Assembly (NCBI RefSeq): GCF_013408685.1
Contig: NZ_JACBZY010000001.1
Coordinates: 868,001-932,000 of the forward strand
DNA from: Schumannella luteola
GTDB lineage: Bacteria > Actinomycetota > Actinomycetes > Actinomycetales > Microbacteriaceae
DNA length: 64,000 bases
Direction: 5' to 3'
The position numbers and the translations under genes are program-made. Below are positions 17,759 to 63,851 of the stretch, piece by piece. The notes beneath the pieces are model-generated. The model saw only the letters and a list, made by a program, of their open reading frames with translations. It did not search any database and was not told the origin of the DNA. Position 1 is the stretch's first letter. Each line of letters opens with the position of its first letter.

Positions 17759-18090
17759 CCCGCCTGGCCGTGCTCAGTGCTCGAGGGTGGCCAGAAACTG
17801 CACGCGACACGCTGAGCGCGCGTGTGCTTCGTGGCCACCCACGCCGGGGATGCGTGCTGGGTGGCCAGAAACTGCACGCGACACGCCGCCCGCGCGTGTG
17901 ATCTCTGGCCACCCACCTCGGAGATGTGCGCTGGGTGGCCAGGAAGTGCACGCGACACGCCGCAACGGCGTGCTCTTCTTGGCCACCCGCGCCTCGAACC
18001 CCGAGTCCAGAACTCCGTGCCTCGGATCCCGGCGCCCAGAACCGCGCGCGGCGGCCGTTGCTGATCAGGAAACGGGCGGGTGGATGCGGG
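17759..18090. other. Gene-free gap after the kinase gene
   Basis: 332 bp without a credible gene. Most of it is the 74-bp repeat array at 17785-17988. The open frames there contain the repeated motif and look like translation of the repeat, not genes. Confidence 0.6.
17785..17988. repeat. Three palindromic 56-bp units at an exact 74-bp period
   Basis: Units at 17785-17840, 17859-17914 and 17933-17988 each begin GGGTGGCCA and end TGGCCACCC, a 9-bp terminal inverted repeat. An inner stem pairs ACACGC with GCGTGT, except that the third unit lacks it. A motif close to AGAAACTGCACGCGACACGC is shared by all. Spacers of 18 bp separate them and resemble each other (ACGCCGGGGATGCGTGCT and ACCTCGGAGATGTGCGCT). 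Each would fold into a long hairpin. Confidence 0.9.
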
Positions 18091-35289: not shown

Positions 35290-35540
35290 GCTCTGATCCA
35301 AGTCGCCGCAGCGGCGCCGCACGAGTCGAATCCAGCCAACGTTCGAGTGGGCTCCGCCGGGGTGCGCGGTCGTGCGACCACCGTCGCCGGCATCCGCCGT
35401 CGTCCGCTGAGTCGCCCGCTTCCGCGGTGCGTCGTACGCGACAGGCCGCGGAAGCGGGCAACTCGGGCCAGCATCCCGGCGCGATCGGCCGGACCCGACG
35501 AGCAGCAAGCGCTCAGCCGAACGCGCTCACCCGAACGCGC
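35290..35540. other. Gap with hairpin, no gene
   Basis: 251 bp between two genes on the same strand. It holds the hairpin at 35409-35464 and a direct repeat CCGAACGCGCTCACCC (35518-35533 and 35531-35546 in part) near the end of the GH76 gene. No credible gene is seen. Confidence 0.4.
35409..35464. repeat. Hairpin repeat, copy 2 of the GAGTTGCCCG family
   Basis: GAGTCGCCCGCTTCCGCGG (35409-35427) pairs with CCGCGGAAGCGGGCAACTC (35446-35464), 18 of 19 positions, and GTCG/CGAC pair within the loop. The outer arms match the copy at 31483-31538. It lies between a GH76 gene end and a hydrolase gene start. Confidence 0.75.
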
Positions 35541-36746
35541 TCACCCCCGCGCCTGCTGGATGACCGCGACCGACGCCGAAGCCGTGAGGCTCTGCACCGG
35601 GCCGTCGGCCGGGGTGACCGCCCAGTCGCCGCCGCCGAGTCCGGCGCCGTTGCGGTGCGCGGCCGCCGCCGCGGCGTTCACGGTCAGCGCCTGCTCGTAC
35701 TGCGTCTGGCCGCCCTGGTCGACGAGGTCGCGCAGGGCCCGGGTGAAGACCGCCTTGAACCCGCCGGTGTCATCGCTGCCCTCGTCGGGCAGCACGCCGT
35801 CATCCCCGGGCAGGTTCGCGAGCGCCCAGTCAGCGGCGCGCGTCGCGACCTGCAGGTAGTGGTCGTCGCCGGTCGCGAGCTTCAGCTGCAGGCCCGCGCT
35901 CGCGTAGCCGCCGAAGTTGTAGGTCCACGGCCAGTCGGCCAGCTCGCCGCCGCCGGAGATGTGGTCGTAGAGGTGGCCCTGGCGGGTGTCGAAGGTCGCC
36001 TCGAGCCAGCCGAAGATGCGCTTCGCGGTGTCGAGGTAGGCGGTGTCGCCGGTCGCGTCGTAGAGCTTGACCGCGGTCTGCACGAAGGTGCCGTTGGTGG
36101 CGATGTTCTTCTCGTTCTTCGTGCCGTCGCCGACATCCACGTTCTTCCACCACAGACCGCCGCCGTACTGCGTGTCTTCGTACTGGGCGATGTAGGCGAA
36201 CTTCTCCTTCGCCGAGTCGAGGAAGCGGCTCTCGCCGGTCAGCTCGTAGGCGCGGATCGAGCCGCGCGCCCACCAGCCGATGTCGTCGTTCCAGTCGTTG
36301 TCGCGGAAGTCGGGGTAGGCGGCGGTGAAGCCGTCGTAGACATCGTCGATGAGCTGACGGCTCTGGGCGTCGTGGGTGCGCTGGTAGCGGTCCATCACGG
36401 TCTCCCAGAGCTGCGCCTCCCACCAGTAGTCGGTGTAGAGCCCGGCCTCGGGTCCGTGGGCGTGCTCGTCGTGGATGACGTGGTCGCTGTAGGTGAAGAA
36501 GTACTTCTTGCCGGGGTCGTAGAACTGGGCGAGCAGCGCCGCGAACGACTCGTCGGCGGCCTGGTCGGCTGCCTGGTCGGCGGTGGATGCGGCGGATGCG
36601 GCGGAAGCAGCGGTCGCGGTGTGGGCCTGGTGCCCGGCACCTCCCGGCGGAGCCGCCGCGGGTGCCGCGACGGCGGCGGCCGGAGCCAGGATGACGGCGC
36701 CGGCGAGGGCGGCGCCGAGGGCGAGGGCGGTGGTGGTCGTTCGCAT
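35541..36746 (-). CDS. Secreted GH76 family endo-alpha-1,6-mannanase
   Basis: A 401-residue exported protein that cuts the alpha-1,6-mannan backbone of yeast or mycobacterial-type glycans outside the cell. The signal peptide MRTTTTALALGAALAGAVILAPAAA is followed by a low-complexity Ala/Ser/Gln segment. The catalytic Asp pair is in NDWNDDIGWWARG near residues 155-167, and FTYSDHVIHDEHAHGPEAGLYTDYWW is near residue 83. The length is near the usual 380-400. ATG 36746 follows GGGGAG; an upstream ATG lacks it. It is divergent from the importer operon and shares the regulatory gap. Confidence 0.9.
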   Translation of the reverse strand: MRTTTTALALGAALAGAVILAPAAAVAAPAAAPPGGAGHQAHTATAASAASAASTADQAADQAADESFAALLAQFYDPGKKYFFTYSDHVIHDEHAHGPEAGLYTDYWWEAQLWETVMDRYQRTHDAQSRQLIDDVYDGFTAAYPDFRDNDWNDDIGWWARGSIRAYELTGESRFLDSAKEKFAYIAQYEDTQYGGGLWWKNVDVGDGTKNEKNIATNGTFVQTAVKLYDATGDTAYLDTAKRIFGWLEATFDTRQGHLYDHISGGGELADWPWTYNFGGYASAGLQLKLATGDDHYLQVATRAADWALANLPGDDGVLPDEGSDDTGGFKAVFTRALRDLVDQGGQTQYEQALTVNAAAAAAHRNGAGLGGGDWAVTPADGPVQSLTASASVAVIQQARG

Positions 36747-59600: not shown

Positions 59601-60680
59601 GTCGTGACCGTGCAGCAGAAGACCGCGATCACCTCGCCGTCGGATGCCGCGTTCACGGCCGGCGACGCCGGGTCGTTCACCGTCACCACCGACGGCGGCT
59701 ACCCGACCCCCGCGGCGCTCGAGCTCGACGGCGACCTGCCCGACGGGCTGAGCTTCGTCGACAACGGCGACGGGACCGCGACGCTGTTCGGAACCCCCGA
59801 GTCCGGAACCGGCGGGGTCAGCACCGTGGATGTCGTCGCGACCACCGCACCCGGCCACGTCACGCGCCAGACCCTGACGATCACGATCGGCGAGACGGCC
59901 GAGATCACCGGACCCGACCGCGTCGATGCGACCGCCGGCGTGCCGTTCAGCGCGACCGTCACCACCTCGGCCGGCTACCCGTCGGTCGTGACGCTGACCA
60001 CCGGGACCCTGCCCGCGGGCGTCGACTTCGTCGACAACGGCGACGGCACCGCGACCCTCTCGGGCGCCGTCGCCGCCGCGGGTTCGAGCGTCATCACGGT
60101 CACCGCGACGAACGACACCGGCGCCACCTCGGCCGACGTGACCCTCGTCGTCGCCGAGCCCGCCGTCGTGCCGCTGCCGCTCATCCTGCCGACGTTCACC
60201 GGATCGCTCACCGGCGTTCCTGACCACCTCGAGCAGGGGCAGACCTTCACCGTCAGAGGATCCGGCTTCGCGCCGCACGCGCCGATCACGCTCGGGCTGT
60301 ACTCGACCCCGACCAGGCTCGCGACCGTCGAGGCGGATGACGCGGGCGCGTTCACGGCGACGCTGACGGTTCCGAACGACTTCGCGGTCGGCGACCACAC
60401 GGTCGTCGCCGCGGGCATCGGCGCCGACGGCACGGCCCGCTACCTCGGCGCGCCCACGACGGTCTCGGCCGCCGACGTCGACCCGGGTGACGGGGGCACG
60501 ACGCCGGGCGGCGGGTCGGGCGGCTCGGGCTCGGGCTCGGGCTCCGGTGGTTCGAGCTCGCCGTCGGGCCTCGCGGCCACGGGCGTCGGCGAGGGCTGGA
60601 TGCTCGCCGCCGCGCTCGCCCTGCTGGCTCTGCTCGCCGGCATCCGCCTGGTCGTCGCGCGCCGCCGCGCCGCCGCCTGA
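56649..60680 (+). CDS. Large surface protein with beta-helix, Ig-like repeats and LAATG sorting signal
   Basis: A 1343-residue protein. A signal peptide ends near residue 63. Residues 64-420 form a parallel beta-helix with many Gly/Ser/Asn/Thr repeats and an NWWGCP-type end near residue 416. Then come six putative Ig-like (He_PIG) repeats, five with the stretch DNGDGTATL, and one I-set-like Ig domain at residues 807-900. A last beta-rich domain (HLEQGQTFTVRGSGFAPHAP) precedes a Gly/Ser linker. LAATG at residues 1308-1312, a hydrophobic helix and an RRRAAA tail form a class E-type sortase signal. So it is a wall-anchored adhesin. The start was set at ATG 56649. Confidence 0.88.
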   Translation: MTTSTPTPVSAALRASAPAADHPDLRPAARSPRVRRTPLLAAGLAVLLAAAGVVALPADAALAATTIDVSTTADGDANSACTNSTVTSVATPVTLRNALCVAGNTASATTIRIGSGVYQLTQGEIAFGQKSGANITLERSGGGTTEIVGDGQHRVLDIDPNLVGGISVTLHDLTVRGGVDDLAQPGSQGSGGFGGAGIIAGSGADASVAGDSLTLLYVNVTGNTVKAHASPTVNSGGGGVQFIGGSLTITGSTISGNSSNAGPGGGVYYEAAPGRSGESLTVTNSTFSSNTVANASTYPSGGAGISVAGVTGSTASITGSTFTGNIGSATGAGGASGGAIRLAPAGTSSGAGAATVNSNRLIGNRATAGAGSQVAVDTTTTALHYNDIRPAAADTAPVVTASPASAVDATQNWWGCPTAPGGTGCPTVTAGIPVTPSLVFAATATPATVSAPGARSTILASFATDSAGTAIDPNLLGAFSEAATFSTDSGTLDSTSVPLSRGAASAQLTTPTTPGRSTVTVTYGGLAKQAVVTAPQAPAFTSASSVAFTAGTAGSFTITTTGYPAAAITRTAGALPAGLTFTDNGDGTATLAGTPTASGSVTLSLTADNGSASPAAQQLAVTVRKAATITSAAAATFATGAAGSFTVTTTGSPTPVLTESGALPSGVTFVDNGDGTATLAGTPAAGTGGQYQLTITASNGVGANAVQPFTLTVNAPPTLGGGATATATAATGTAFSRTITTTAGYPTATTITESGALPAGLTFTDNGDGTATLAGTPGALSGGVYVLQISAGNGVGSAAQQLTLTVNQAPAVTANPASQSTTVGSQVAFTASATGYPAPSIQWQQRAAGATAFADIADATSGTLTLTATAQLDGSAYRAVFTNGAGTATTTVADLAVGTGPAITSDAAVTISGDGAAQTITITTTGKPTPTVALTDGSVPGLTFAAGSGADAGTATLTGVPTASGVFTLQLSAANEHGTGTQTLVVTVQQKTAITSPSDAAFTAGDAGSFTVTTDGGYPTPAALELDGDLPDGLSFVDNGDGTATLFGTPESGTGGVSTVDVVATTAPGHVTRQTLTITIGETAEITGPDRVDATAGVPFSATVTTSAGYPSVVTLTTGTLPAGVDFVDNGDGTATLSGAVAAAGSSVITVTATNDTGATSADVTLVVAEPAVVPLPLILPTFTGSLTGVPDHLEQGQTFTVRGSGFAPHAPITLGLYSTPTRLATVEADDAGAFTATLTVPNDFAVGDHTVVAAGIGADGTARYLGAPTTVSAADVDPGDGGTTPGGGSGGSGSGSGSGGSSSPSGLAATGVGEGWMLAAALALLALLAGIRLVVARRRAAA

Positions 60681-60731
60681 GTTCCGGTTCCGGGCAGGAT
60701 CGCGCGGCGCTCTCCGGGACCGACTTCGACT

Positions 60732-60769
60732 CGCGCGGGCGGATGTGGCTCCACACGCCCGCCCGCGCG
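60732..60769. terminator. Terminator between the surface protein and response regulator genes
   Basis: CGCGCGGGCGG (60732-60742) and CCGCCCGCGCG (60759-60769) are a perfect 11-bp stem with an inner GTGG/CCAC stem. It lies between convergent genes. A further direct repeat GGATCGCGCGGCG occurs at 60699-60711 and 60811-60823. Confidence 0.7.
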
Positions 60770-60834
60770 ACCTGCATCCCAACTCCGCCCACGCCAGCCC
60801 GAGTGCAGGGCCGGATCGCGCGGCGATTCTCCGC

Positions 60835-61506
60835 TCAGAGCAGGCCGAGCTCCATCGCGCGGGTCACGGCGCGGGTGCGGTCGCTCACCTCGAGCTTCTC
60901 GAAGACGTGCAGCAGGTGCGTCTTCACCGTGGCTTCGCCGAGCAGCAGCTCGCGGGCGATGCGCGGGTTGCTGAAACCCTGCGCGACGAGCGCGAGCACC
61001 TCGCTCTCGCGCGGGCTCAGCGTCACGGTCGGCTCGGCGGATGCGTGCGGCCGCGCGACTCGCGTGACGAGCGCCGCCGCGATCGACGGCGCCAGGGCGA
61101 CCTCGCCGCGGGCCACCGCACGCACACCGGCGAGCACCTCCGCCTCGGGCGCCGCCTTGAGCAGATAGCCGGTCGCGCCCGCCTCGATCGCCCGCAGGAT
61201 CGCGTCATCGCTCTCGTAGGTCGTCAGCACGAGCACCCGCGTCTCCGGCAGCGCCGACCGGATGCGCGCCGTCGCCTCGTCGCCGTCGATCCCGGGCATG
61301 CGCAGGTCCATCAGCACGAGATCGGGGGTGAGGGCGAGGGCGCGCTCGACCGCCTCGAGTCCGGTGGATGCGGTGCCCACCACATCCACATCGTCGGCCG
61401 CGTCGAGCAGTGCGACGATGCCGCCCCGCACGATCGGGTGGTCGTCGGCGACGAGCACGCGGATGCGCGGGGCTGCGCGCTCGTCGGGAGCGGCGGGCGG
61501 GGTCAT
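60835..61506 (-). CDS. NarL/LuxR-type response regulator
   Basis: A 223-residue protein. The receiver has VLVADDHPIVRGGI with the acidic pair near residue 20, the phosphorylation Asp in LVLMDLRMPGIDG near residue 67 and Lys in GYLLKAAPEAE. The output domain TLSPRESEVLALVAQGFSNPRIARELLLGEATVKTHLLHVFEKL is a LuxR helix-turn-helix. It pairs with the histidine kinase encoded just upstream. ATG 61506 is in the last copy of the 59-bp repeat; an ATGA with the last mini-ORF couples its translation. Confidence 0.93.
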   Translation of the reverse strand: MTPPAAPDERAAPRIRVLVADDHPIVRGGIVALLDAADDVDVVGTASTGLEAVERALALTPDLVLMDLRMPGIDGDEATARIRSALPETRVLVLTTYESDDAILRAIEAGATGYLLKAAPEAEVLAGVRAVARGEVALAPSIAAALVTRVARPHASAEPTVTLSPRESEVLALVAQGFSNPRIARELLLGEATVKTHLLHVFEKLEVSDRTRAVTRAMELGLL

Positions 61507-61565
61507 GCGGGGGCTCCGATCGGGAGGGTCGCGCTGTCGTGGGCGCGGTCGGGGTCCGGGGTCAT
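61503..61565 (-). CDS. 20-residue mini-ORF 3 of the repeat
   Basis: Starts at ATG 61565 with MTPDPDRAHDS and ends ATLPIGAPA, the last 9 residues also being the kinase's C-terminus. Its stop overlaps the response regulator start in ATGA. A GGAG site lies 7 nt before the start. It may be only a coupling device. Confidence 0.5.
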   Translation of the reverse strand: MTPDPDRAHDSATLPIGAPA

Positions 61566-61624
61566 GCGGGGGCTCCGATCGGGAGGGTCGCGCTGTCGTG
61601 GGCGCGGTCGGGGTCCGGGGTCAT
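61562..61624 (-). CDS. 20-residue mini-ORF 2 of the repeat
   Basis: Identical peptide to mini-ORF 3, from ATG 61624. It ends in ATGA with mini-ORF 3. Same GGAG spacing. Confidence 0.5.
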   Translation of the reverse strand: MTPDPDRAHDSATLPIGAPA

Positions 61625-61683
61625 GCGGGGGCTCCGATCGGGAGGGTCGCGCTGTCGTGGGCGCGGTCGGGGTCCGGGGTCAT
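61621..61683 (-). CDS. 20-residue mini-ORF 1 of the repeat
   Basis: Identical peptide from ATG 61683. This start overlaps the kinase stop in ATGA, as the response regulator start would have done before the repeat was inserted. Confidence 0.5.
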   Translation of the reverse strand: MTPDPDRAHDSATLPIGAPA

Positions 61684-62948
61684 GCGGGGGCTCCGATCGG
61701 GAGGGTCGCGCGCAGGCGGGTTCCGGAGGCGTCGCTCGTGACGGCGAGCGCGCCGCCGGCGAGGGCGAGCCGGTCGCGCATGCCGCTGAGGCCGAAGCCC
61801 GGGCTCGGTGCGTCGGCGTCGAAGCCGGCGCCGTCGTCGTGCACCTCGAGGGCGAGTGACGGGGCAGCTTGGGTCGTCGTCGCATCGCCCGCCGGGGTGC
61901 TCAGCGTCAGACGCACCCGCGTCGCGCCGGCGTGCTTGCGCACGTTCGCGAGCGCCTCCTGCGCGCAGCGGATCAGCACCACCTCACGGTCGCGGTCGAG
62001 CGTGACGTCGTCGACCCGCACATCCACCTCGACCGCGATCCCGGTCTCGCGCTCGAAGCGCTCGGCGAGGCGGCGCATCGCCGGGGCGAGACCGCCCTCG
62101 AGTGTCGGGGATGCGGTGCTCGCGACGAGCGCGCGGGCCTCGCCGAGCGCGGCGCGGGCGGCGTCTTCGAGAGCGTCGAGGCGGGCGAGCCCGGCGGCGA
62201 GAGCCGGCGCCGGGCTGGCAGAACCGGCAGAACCGGCGGAACCGGCAGAACCGGCGGCATCGGAATCCGGACCGGCGGTGCCGCGCTCCAGCTCACGGCG
62301 GGTCTGCTGGGCGAGCAGCACGAGCCCGGTCAGGTCCTGCGCGACTGTGTCGTGGATCTCGCGGGCCAGCCGCTCGCGCTCGCTCGCGACCCCGGCATCC
62401 CGGTGCGCCGCGGCCAGCGCATCCTGTGTCGCCCGCAGCTCGTCGAGCAGCACCCGGCGCTGCTCGCTCTGGTCGGCGATGCCCGAGATCCAGAGTCCGA
62501 AGACGACGGCGAAGCCGAACGAGATCGCCTGGATCGAGATCGCGCCGACCACGAAGTCGGGCCACGCCATCGCGAGCCCGACCGCGACCGCGAGCACCGC
62601 GCTCGCGACGATGGCGGGACGGCGGCTGGGCGACGCCATCCAGATCAGCGGGAAGGCGAGGCACTGCACGCTCGCGAGCGAGGGGTTCATCCACGTCGCG
62701 GCGGCCGCCCAGAGGATCGCGACGGCGACCAGCAGCGGCGCCAGCCGCGGCCGCGTCTCGCAGTCGCGCCCGAAGGCGAACCACGAGGTCAACAGCACAA
62801 GGGATGCGGCGAGGCTCACGAGTCCGCGCAGTGCGAGGCCGCCGACACCGGCGGCGAGATCACCCGAGCTGATGAGCACCAGGGCGGAGACGACCGCGGT
62901 GGCGCCGACGATCAGCGCGACCGCGATCGTCCACCCGACGTGCCTCAT
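61680..62948 (-). CDS. NarL-family sensor histidine kinase
   Basis: A 422-residue kinase. Five or six membrane helices in residues 5-165 form the sensor with little outside the membrane. The HisKA_3 dimer domain has RERLAREIHDTVAQDLTGLVLLAQQ near residue 195, with the phospho-His. The HATPase_c has CAQEALANVRKHAGATRVRL and DDGAGFDADAPSPGFGLSGMRDRL. A GSAGSAGSA tract (residues 232-246) from an imperfect 9-bp DNA repeat near 62218-62256 is a flexible linker. It is adjacent to an ABC exporter gene, as in LiaFSR-like systems. Confidence 0.93.
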   Translation of the reverse strand: MRHVGWTIAVALIVGATAVVSALVLISSGDLAAGVGGLALRGLVSLAASLVLLTSWFAFGRDCETRPRLAPLLVAVAILWAAAATWMNPSLASVQCLAFPLIWMASPSRRPAIVASAVLAVAVGLAMAWPDFVVGAISIQAISFGFAVVFGLWISGIADQSEQRRVLLDELRATQDALAAAHRDAGVASERERLAREIHDTVAQDLTGLVLLAQQTRRELERGTAGPDSDAAGSAGSAGSAGSASPAPALAAGLARLDALEDAARAALGEARALVASTASPTLEGGLAPAMRRLAERFERETGIAVEVDVRVDDVTLDRDREVVLIRCAQEALANVRKHAGATRVRLTLSTPAGDATTTQAAPSLALEVHDDGAGFDADAPSPGFGLSGMRDRLALAGGALAVTSDASGTRLRATLPIGAPA

Positions 62949-63851
62949 TCAGCCATCCTCGCGGATCCAGCGGAAGGTGAGGCGGCAGAGCACCAGACCG
63001 GCGACCAGCCAGATGCCGCAGACGAGGGCGACCTCGGGCAGCTGCCAGCTGCCGCCCTGCTCGAGCGACTCGAAGCTGTCGGGCAGGAACACCGACCGCA
63101 TCCCCTGCGCCAGCCACTTCAGCGGGAACACGCTCGCCGTGTTCTGCAGCCACTCCGGCAGCTGCGAGAACTGCAGGTACACGCCCGAGATGAACTGCAG
63201 CACGATCGTCACCGGCACGATCACCGCGGTCGCGCTGCGCCCGCTGCGGGGCAGTCGCGAGATCGCGATGCCGAGCACCGCGCTCGTCAGCACGCCGAGC
63301 AGGAACACCCACGCGAAGGTCAGCCAGCGCCCCGGCTCGGTCGGCAGCTCGACGCCGAACACCAGACGGGCGACGAGGATGAGCAGCGCCGCCTGCGCGG
63401 TCGCGGTCACCAGGGCCTGGCCGAGCTTGCCAATGAAGTAGCTCGCGACCGGCAGCGGGGTTCCGGCGAGACGCTTGAGGGTGCCGTCGCCGCGCTCCCC
63501 GGCGATGTCGACGCCGAGGTTCTGCACGCCGCTGAGCAGGATGCCCGCGGCCAGCATGGCCGGCAGGTAGTAGCGGGCGACGTTCATCTCCGAGCCCGCC
63601 GGCCCGAAGCTGAGGTTCGCGAACGCCGCCGAGAAGATCGACATCATCACGATCGGGAACAGGAACGTGAACACGAGCGCGTCACGGCGCCGGAAGTAGC
63701 TGGCGATCTCGTAGCGCGCCCGCTCGAGGCCGAGGCGCAGGGTGCGCGCGGGGGAGCGGTCGAGGGCGCCGGGGCGGGCTGGGGTTCCCGGGGCGCTCGG
63801 ACTGCTCGGGATGTTCGGGGTGCGGTTCGCGGGAGTGATCGCGGCGCTCAT
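62949..63851 (-). CDS. ABC-2 type exporter permease
   Basis: A 300-residue membrane protein. The N-terminus is Pro-rich (about 35 residues), then a helix at residues 58-78, and five more around residues 93-112, 138-163, 171-198, 202-224 and 268-290. Segments GVDIAGERGDGTLKRLAGTPLP and YIGKLGQALVTATAQAALLILVA fit ABC-2 permeases of the DrrB/NatB group. Its ATG overlaps the ATPase stop (ATGA), and its TGA is next to the kinase ATG. The substrate is unknown; antimicrobial peptides or drugs would fit control by a two-component system. Confidence 0.9.
   Translation of the reverse strand: MSAAITPANRTPNIPSSPSAPGTPARPGALDRSPARTLRLGLERARYEIASYFRRRDALVFTFLFPIVMMSIFSAAFANLSFGPAGSEMNVARYYLPAMLAAGILLSGVQNLGVDIAGERGDGTLKRLAGTPLPVASYFIGKLGQALVTATAQAALLILVARLVFGVELPTEPGRWLTFAWVFLLGVLTSAVLGIAISRLPRSGRSATAVIVPVTIVLQFISGVYLQFSQLPEWLQNTASVFPLKWLAQGMRSVFLPDSFESLEQGGSWQLPEVALVCGIWLVAGLVLCRLTFRWIREDG

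Follow-up and report, generated by a model that had tools for sequence, protein, structure and literature searches.

A sensor histidine kinase gene and its response-regulator gene in Schumannella luteola are joined by a ladder of three mini-ORFs, which is carried on a perfect tandem array of a 59-bp unit and linked by four ATGA stop/start overlaps. The array lies on the minus strand of a 64,000-nucleotide stretch of DNA that was analysed as a whole and is here called the window; the coordinates of its features are collected in Table 1. It probably arose when a stop/start junction with translational coupling was duplicated locally in tandem, in an arrangement that would keep the regulator tied to translation of the kinase. 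To judge from the sequence, local duplication would thus have made a ladder of coupled mini-ORFs that is a separate-looking analogue of the MIRU repeats found at the mycobacterial senX3-regX3 junction.

The sequence itself, the ORF list and the tandem repeat search (TRF) agree on a perfect array of 3.6 head-to-tail copies. TRF reported a period of 59, 100% matches and a score of 428, the highest of the 26 rows obtained for the window (the next was 270), and a script established that each base equals the base 59 positions further on throughout the 214 bp. The inserted length is 177 bp, corresponding to three extra perfect copies of a 59-bp segment that spans the kinase-regulator junction. The junctions are built like those of gene pairs coupled at −4 nt, as an NTGA stop/start overlap with a ribosome-binding site, here ATGA on all four occasions with GGAG 7 nt 5′ of the ATG. 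The mini-peptide MTPDPDRAHDSATLPIGAPA is identical in all three mini-ORFs, and its last nine residues, ATLPIGAPA, are also the C-terminal end of the kinase because the unit holds the 3′ end of the kinase gene. An earlier note on this DNA had described three 20-residue mini-ORFs, four ATGA junctions each with a GGAG and an ATLPIGAPA ending shared with the kinase; this anatomy was confirmed by the sequence, the ORF list, TRF and the script, and the common ending by the translations. Of the 59 bp of the unit, 37 repeat the end of the kinase gene and the junction, while exact copies of the remaining 22-bp spacer are found inside the array only. The part of the unit that is not common to the flanks has no clear source.

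Table 1. Features at the kinase-regulator junction of S. luteola, in window positions.
Feature	Position	Strand	Basis
ABC-2 type permease, upstream of kinase	62949..63851	-	sequence, ORF list, Pfam
Sensor histidine kinase, 422 aa, HisKA_3 + HATPase_c	61680..62948	-	ORF; Pfam PF07730, PF02518
Perfect tandem array, 59-bp unit, 3.6 copies	61498..61711	-	TRF, base-for-base copy identity
ATGA junction 1, kinase stop / mini-ORF 1 start	61680..61683	-	sequence; GGAG 61691-61694
Mini-ORF 1, 20 codons	61621..61683	-	ORF list, script
ATGA junction 2	61621..61624	-	sequence; GGAG 61632-61635
Mini-ORF 2, 20 codons	61562..61624	-	script; ORF list has the frame extended upstream, 61562..61885
ATGA junction 3	61562..61565	-	sequence; GGAG 61573-61576
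Mini-ORF 3, 20 codons	61503..61565	-	ORF list, script
ATGA junction 4, mini-ORF 3 stop / regulator start	61503..61506	-	sequence; GGAG 61514-61517
Response regulator, 223 aa, receiver + GerE/LuxR-type HTH	60835..61506	-	ORF; Pfam PF00072, PF00196

The array is present once in the single-contig genome of 3,754,750 bp (completeness 100). With 40 of 61 candidates scored, full-length exact matches were obtained at this site only, and the other matches were one of 44 bp at 83% that overlaps the regulator end of the array and one of 41 bp at 80% elsewhere. Some match was found in 35 of 299 genomes of the family, with at most three candidates scored per genome; the best outside the own genome was the single junction of Schumannella soli (31 bp, 94%), and the longest among those listed was 70 bp at 75% (G045). 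The best TRF score around 80 related loci (508,777 bases) was 210, against 428 for the array. The top repeat score among these loci belongs to a perfect 37-bp repeat of 2.8 copies just 3′ of the regulator gene in Leifsonia sp. Root4 (L081:3762-3866). Within the window, the second-highest TRF score was that of a 74-bp repeat at 17785-17993 (2.8 copies, 81%).

A general scan for ladders was too noisy when any frame of 100 codons was counted as a gene and was replaced by a strict scan, which covered 2141 coupled mini-ORFs in the 972,777 bases of the window, the 80 loci and 20 stretches of the own genome. Eight of these had junction flanks at least 70% alike: three make up the present array, one is the Lacisediminihabitans locus described below (L067), and the other four (window 35544, L063, L127 and L132) lie close to the threshold or are short. 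No such case came from the six shifted controls together, a comparison that is easily beaten, as the shift drops bases that the junctions share by construction. A 14-bp repeat with GTGA at 35509-35546 of the window likewise gives a short series of 5-codon frames, each overlapping the next, that ends at CTGA.

The closest regulator among the relatives listed is that of S. soli 10F1D-1 (L027, and L008 in G001), with 96% identity, and its kinase-regulator junction consists of one ATGA without an array. Two genomes of the genus group carry a close regulator (E up to 1e-70); the array is present in one and absent in the other. The junction was surveyed more widely in 210 loci, made up of the best 80 of at least 483 relatives together with 30 loci and 100 stretches from a family search. 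That search matched the regulator in 157 of 398 genomes at E up to 1e-70, and 130 of the 150 matches listed were used, those omitted being one near a contig end and the 19 lowest-ranking. The titles are mostly of Microbacteriaceae genera, with some MAGs under broader titles and one that says Acidobacteria; the copy of the window itself (L141) was included, and species recur in both sets. One locus (L104) had no kinase match, and the remaining 209 gave 169 distinct junction sequences. In this survey, which is biased to the best matches of the present regulator, 163 of the 169 had a single 4-nt overlap, two had no overlap (L092/L235 and L229) and four had a ladder. The 80 loci alone had an ATGA overlap 38 times and a GTGA overlap 38 times. 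The two junctions without overlap imply that the overlap is not indispensable, and its prevalence at this gene pair makes coupling across the mini-ORF chain plausible.

Ladders other than the Schumannella array were found at the same junction. A MAG of Lacisediminihabitans sp. (L067:2982-3019) holds two 6-codon mini-ORFs, VIRIAA and MIRPAP, in a GTGA-ATGA-GTGA chain on a diverged 17-bp repeat, the copies of which resemble the start of its own regulator, VIRILV. This ladder is apparently separate from the Schumannella array. Herbiconiux ginsengi (L098, kinase stop near 716) and a second locus (L223 in G287) each hold a single 11-codon mini-ORF, with successive starts 32 nt apart. At 91.5% protein identity between the kinase ends, the two are close relatives and probably represent one event. 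Between the two mini-ORFs 21 of 36 bases are the same, a count that includes the start and stop by which the match was defined, as against 86.7% over the 3′-terminal 600 nt of the kinase gene; the length is nevertheless the same and both overlaps are kept. This suggests, as far as two sequences can without amounting to proof, that the architecture may be kept while the peptide drifts. Since the units differ and the great majority of other junctions have a single overlap, we infer that ladders were gained separately in three lineages.

The reading frames follow simply from the length of the unit. When a repeat crosses an ATGA junction, a TGA is in frame with the ATG before it only at a period of 2 mod 3. 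The period of 59 has this property, and every mini-ORF stop therefore meets the next start; the overlaps run from kinase to regulator without a gap, and the regulator can thus stay coupled to the kinase. The periods of the three ladders, 59, 17 and 32, are all 2 mod 3, necessarily so as they are ladders. A ladder is almost automatic when a tandem duplication crosses an ATGA at such a period without introducing an internal stop, and as one period in three is 2 mod 3 by chance, the continuity of the chain is by itself weak evidence of selection. The array could for this reason be neutral and accidental, the product of a recent tandem duplication that leaves the regulator level unchanged and is tolerated as the chain happens to survive. 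The perfect copies fit a recent origin, and only one of the two genus-group genomes with a close regulator has the array. This alternative, which coincides with our preferred explanation as to origin, is a serious possibility although on balance we do not favour it, for two other lineages also have mini-ORF chains at this junction, one of which was kept through divergence.

According to the preferred reading, that of a duplicated coupled junction, slippage or unequal exchange would have created the array, followed by amplification. The single junction of S. soli offers a plausible slip site behind it: two 8-base words with a single mismatch, CGCGACCC in the kinase tail and CGCGACAC in regulator codons 10-13, lie 56 bp apart, and as this distance is 2 mod 3, slippage between them would yield a ladder directly. 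Against this model, the period of the array is 3 bp longer than the model gives. Derivation of the spacer from the first codons of the regulator was also considered and found unconvincing, as their likeness is weak and was equalled by 2355 (window) and 1429 (S. soli) of 20,000 shuffles and by 743 and 439, respectively, of 20,000 random 24-mers from the window.

Coupling is reported to be most efficient at a spacing of −4 to +3 nt and to fall with distance, with exceptions and differences between studies (PMC12548453; this and the other papers are cited from excerpts), and current models explain it by unfolding of the RNA or by ribosome scanning or re-initiation (PMC12548453). A plain gap of 177 bp would therefore be expected to weaken coupling, which the chain of overlaps may preserve. 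The mini-peptides would have no function of their own, and their translation would carry ribosomes over the insert of 177 bp or hold its RNA open; changes that break the chain would probably be selected against. According to the earlier note, a ribosome would reach the regulator only after four re-starts. This does not follow, in that each junction has its own GGAG and fresh initiation inside the array is possible. In a simple model with a re-initiation probability e and fresh initiation d per site, three units gave a regulator output, relative to that without an array, of 0.03 at e=0.3 and d=0, 0.12 at e=0.5 and d=0, 0.42 at e=0.5 and d=0.1, 0.51 at e=0.8 and d=0, and 1.84 at e=0.95 and d=0.5. 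As the modelled output spans 0.03-1.84 over the rates tried, neither the sign nor the size of a copy-number effect can be read from the sequence. Copy number probably shifts the regulator level modestly, and downward where re-initiation dominates.

The same model bears on a second alternative, close to the tunable switch suggested in the earlier note, in which the number of mini-ORFs is a selected and changeable setting of the kinase:regulator ratio. If re-initiation alone operates, three units would cut the regulator output about 8-fold at 50% re-initiation, but the model gives a smaller or an opposite effect once ribosomes also initiate afresh at each GGAG. The perfect identity of the copies points to recent change or exchange, and mycobacterial repeats give the idea some precedent: senX3-regX3 in BCG has two or three 77-bp copies, with two populations within one vaccine preparation (PMC9392950), and expression of M. 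tuberculosis fpg1 goes with the length of its upstream repeat (PMC2734929). S. soli, however, has no array, and S. luteola is represented by a single isolate. Copy-number control of the ratio is thus possible in Schumannella, whereas a selected setting of this kind is unlikely.

These mycobacterial repeats are also a close precedent for the arrangement as such, of which the earlier note knew no described case (PMC12548453, PMC4213456, PMC9392950, PMC2734929). The senX3-regX3 repeats likewise separate the gene of a sensor kinase from that of its response regulator, with three 77-bp copies in H37Rv and two of 77 bp plus one of 53 bp in CDC1551 (PMC4213456), both lengths being 2 mod 3 like 59. 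MIRU ORFs couple at −4 nt (PMC12548453), and a short ORF with 4-nt overlaps to its neighbours is common to MIRUs and, by the four ATGA junctions, to the present array; a role of MIRUs in differential translation within operons was proposed as early as 1997 (PMC2734929, citing Supply et al. 1997). MIRUs are, however, a dispersed family at 41 places in H37Rv (PMC2734929) and appear mobile (PMC12548453), while the Schumannella array occupies one site among the candidates scored in its genome, and 37 of the 59 bp of its unit, unlike a MIRU, repeat the kinase's own end and the junction. We do not file the array as a MIRU, as it is not dispersed and MIRUs were compared by their published description; it would work like the senX3-regX3 repeats and probably has a separate origin. 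The senX3-regX3 copy number varies between mycobacterial strains, whereas the Schumannella array has been seen in one isolate. In macaques the rate of change was estimated at 2.7e-3 per MIRU locus and year (PMC3635867), and a 2025 paper on phase-variable promoter repeats in M. tuberculosis places regX3 among the known cis-regulatory VNTRs (PMC12817950). The genus Schumannella was not named among the matches listed in a limited literature search, which does not establish its absence from earlier work.

Two simpler systems share parts of the layout. Ordinary coupling by a 4-nt ATGA or GTGA overlap is the same at each junction, but the usual pair has one overlap and Schumannella has four in series through three mini-ORFs. 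An upstream short ORF that delivers ribosomes (PMC12548453) similarly overlaps the next start and has no evident peptide function, while the Schumannella mini-ORFs stand in tandem inside an operon between two long genes. The Microbacteriaceae analogue is seemingly non-mobile; its sister species is free of the array, and two other lineages have ladders of their own at this junction. This natural series of 0, 1, 2 and 3 mini-ORFs poses the question of whether the number of rungs determines how much of one coupled protein is made relative to the other, or has no effect. A bolder proposal, that the junction is a recurrent ladder hot spot of actinobacteria apart from MIRUs, with the rung number as a heritable and fast-changing translational setting of kinase to regulator, is speculative and decidedly doubtful.

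It is quite improbable that the array acts on the DNA or as a separate promoter of the regulator instead of in translation. The senX3-regX3 intergenic region of M. tuberculosis has promoter activity (PMC4213456), but a simple scan for promoters of the sigma-70-like type found none at 60650-63000, and an Rfam search of 60500-63000 gave one match, outside the array and below the gathering score. An error of assembly, with a wrong copy number or a repeat that does not exist, is very improbable, for although perfect 59-bp copies are easily miscounted from short reads, the genome is a single contig with a completeness of 100 and the unit, with its 22-bp spacer exact only in the array, would not be produced by expanding a single junction like that of S. 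soli.

Folding of the RNA was considered separately. Short junctions folded not clearly better than shuffles (z of 0.25 for the window, 0.55 for S. soli, −1.40 for one unit and −1.22 for L067). A predicted CUCC/GGAG hairpin forms in both Schumannella species, with an unpaired probability of the GGAG of 0.08-0.18 across the modelled copy numbers and 0.02 in S. soli; given the z values of both species, we do not claim that a hairpin hides the GGAG. For the array as a whole the predicted fold was strong (z −3.57) but was set aside, as repeated GC-rich sequence would give it anyway.

On the upstream side, the TGA of the permease gene directly abuts the ATG of the kinase (TGAATG), and the permease start in turn shares an ATGA with the end of another ORF on this strand. 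The nearest NCBIfam models were MctS and UhpB for the kinase, with scores below the cut-off in each match shown, and NarL, MadR and MctR for the regulator, all below the cut-off among the 25 of 92 matches listed. Inside the kinase gene, at 62217-62255, a 9-bp repeat GGCAGAACC in 4.3 copies codes for an AGS-rich stretch, at which the S. soli kinase is, by eye, shorter and different. The kinase gene thus seems to carry a second tandem-repeat expansion.
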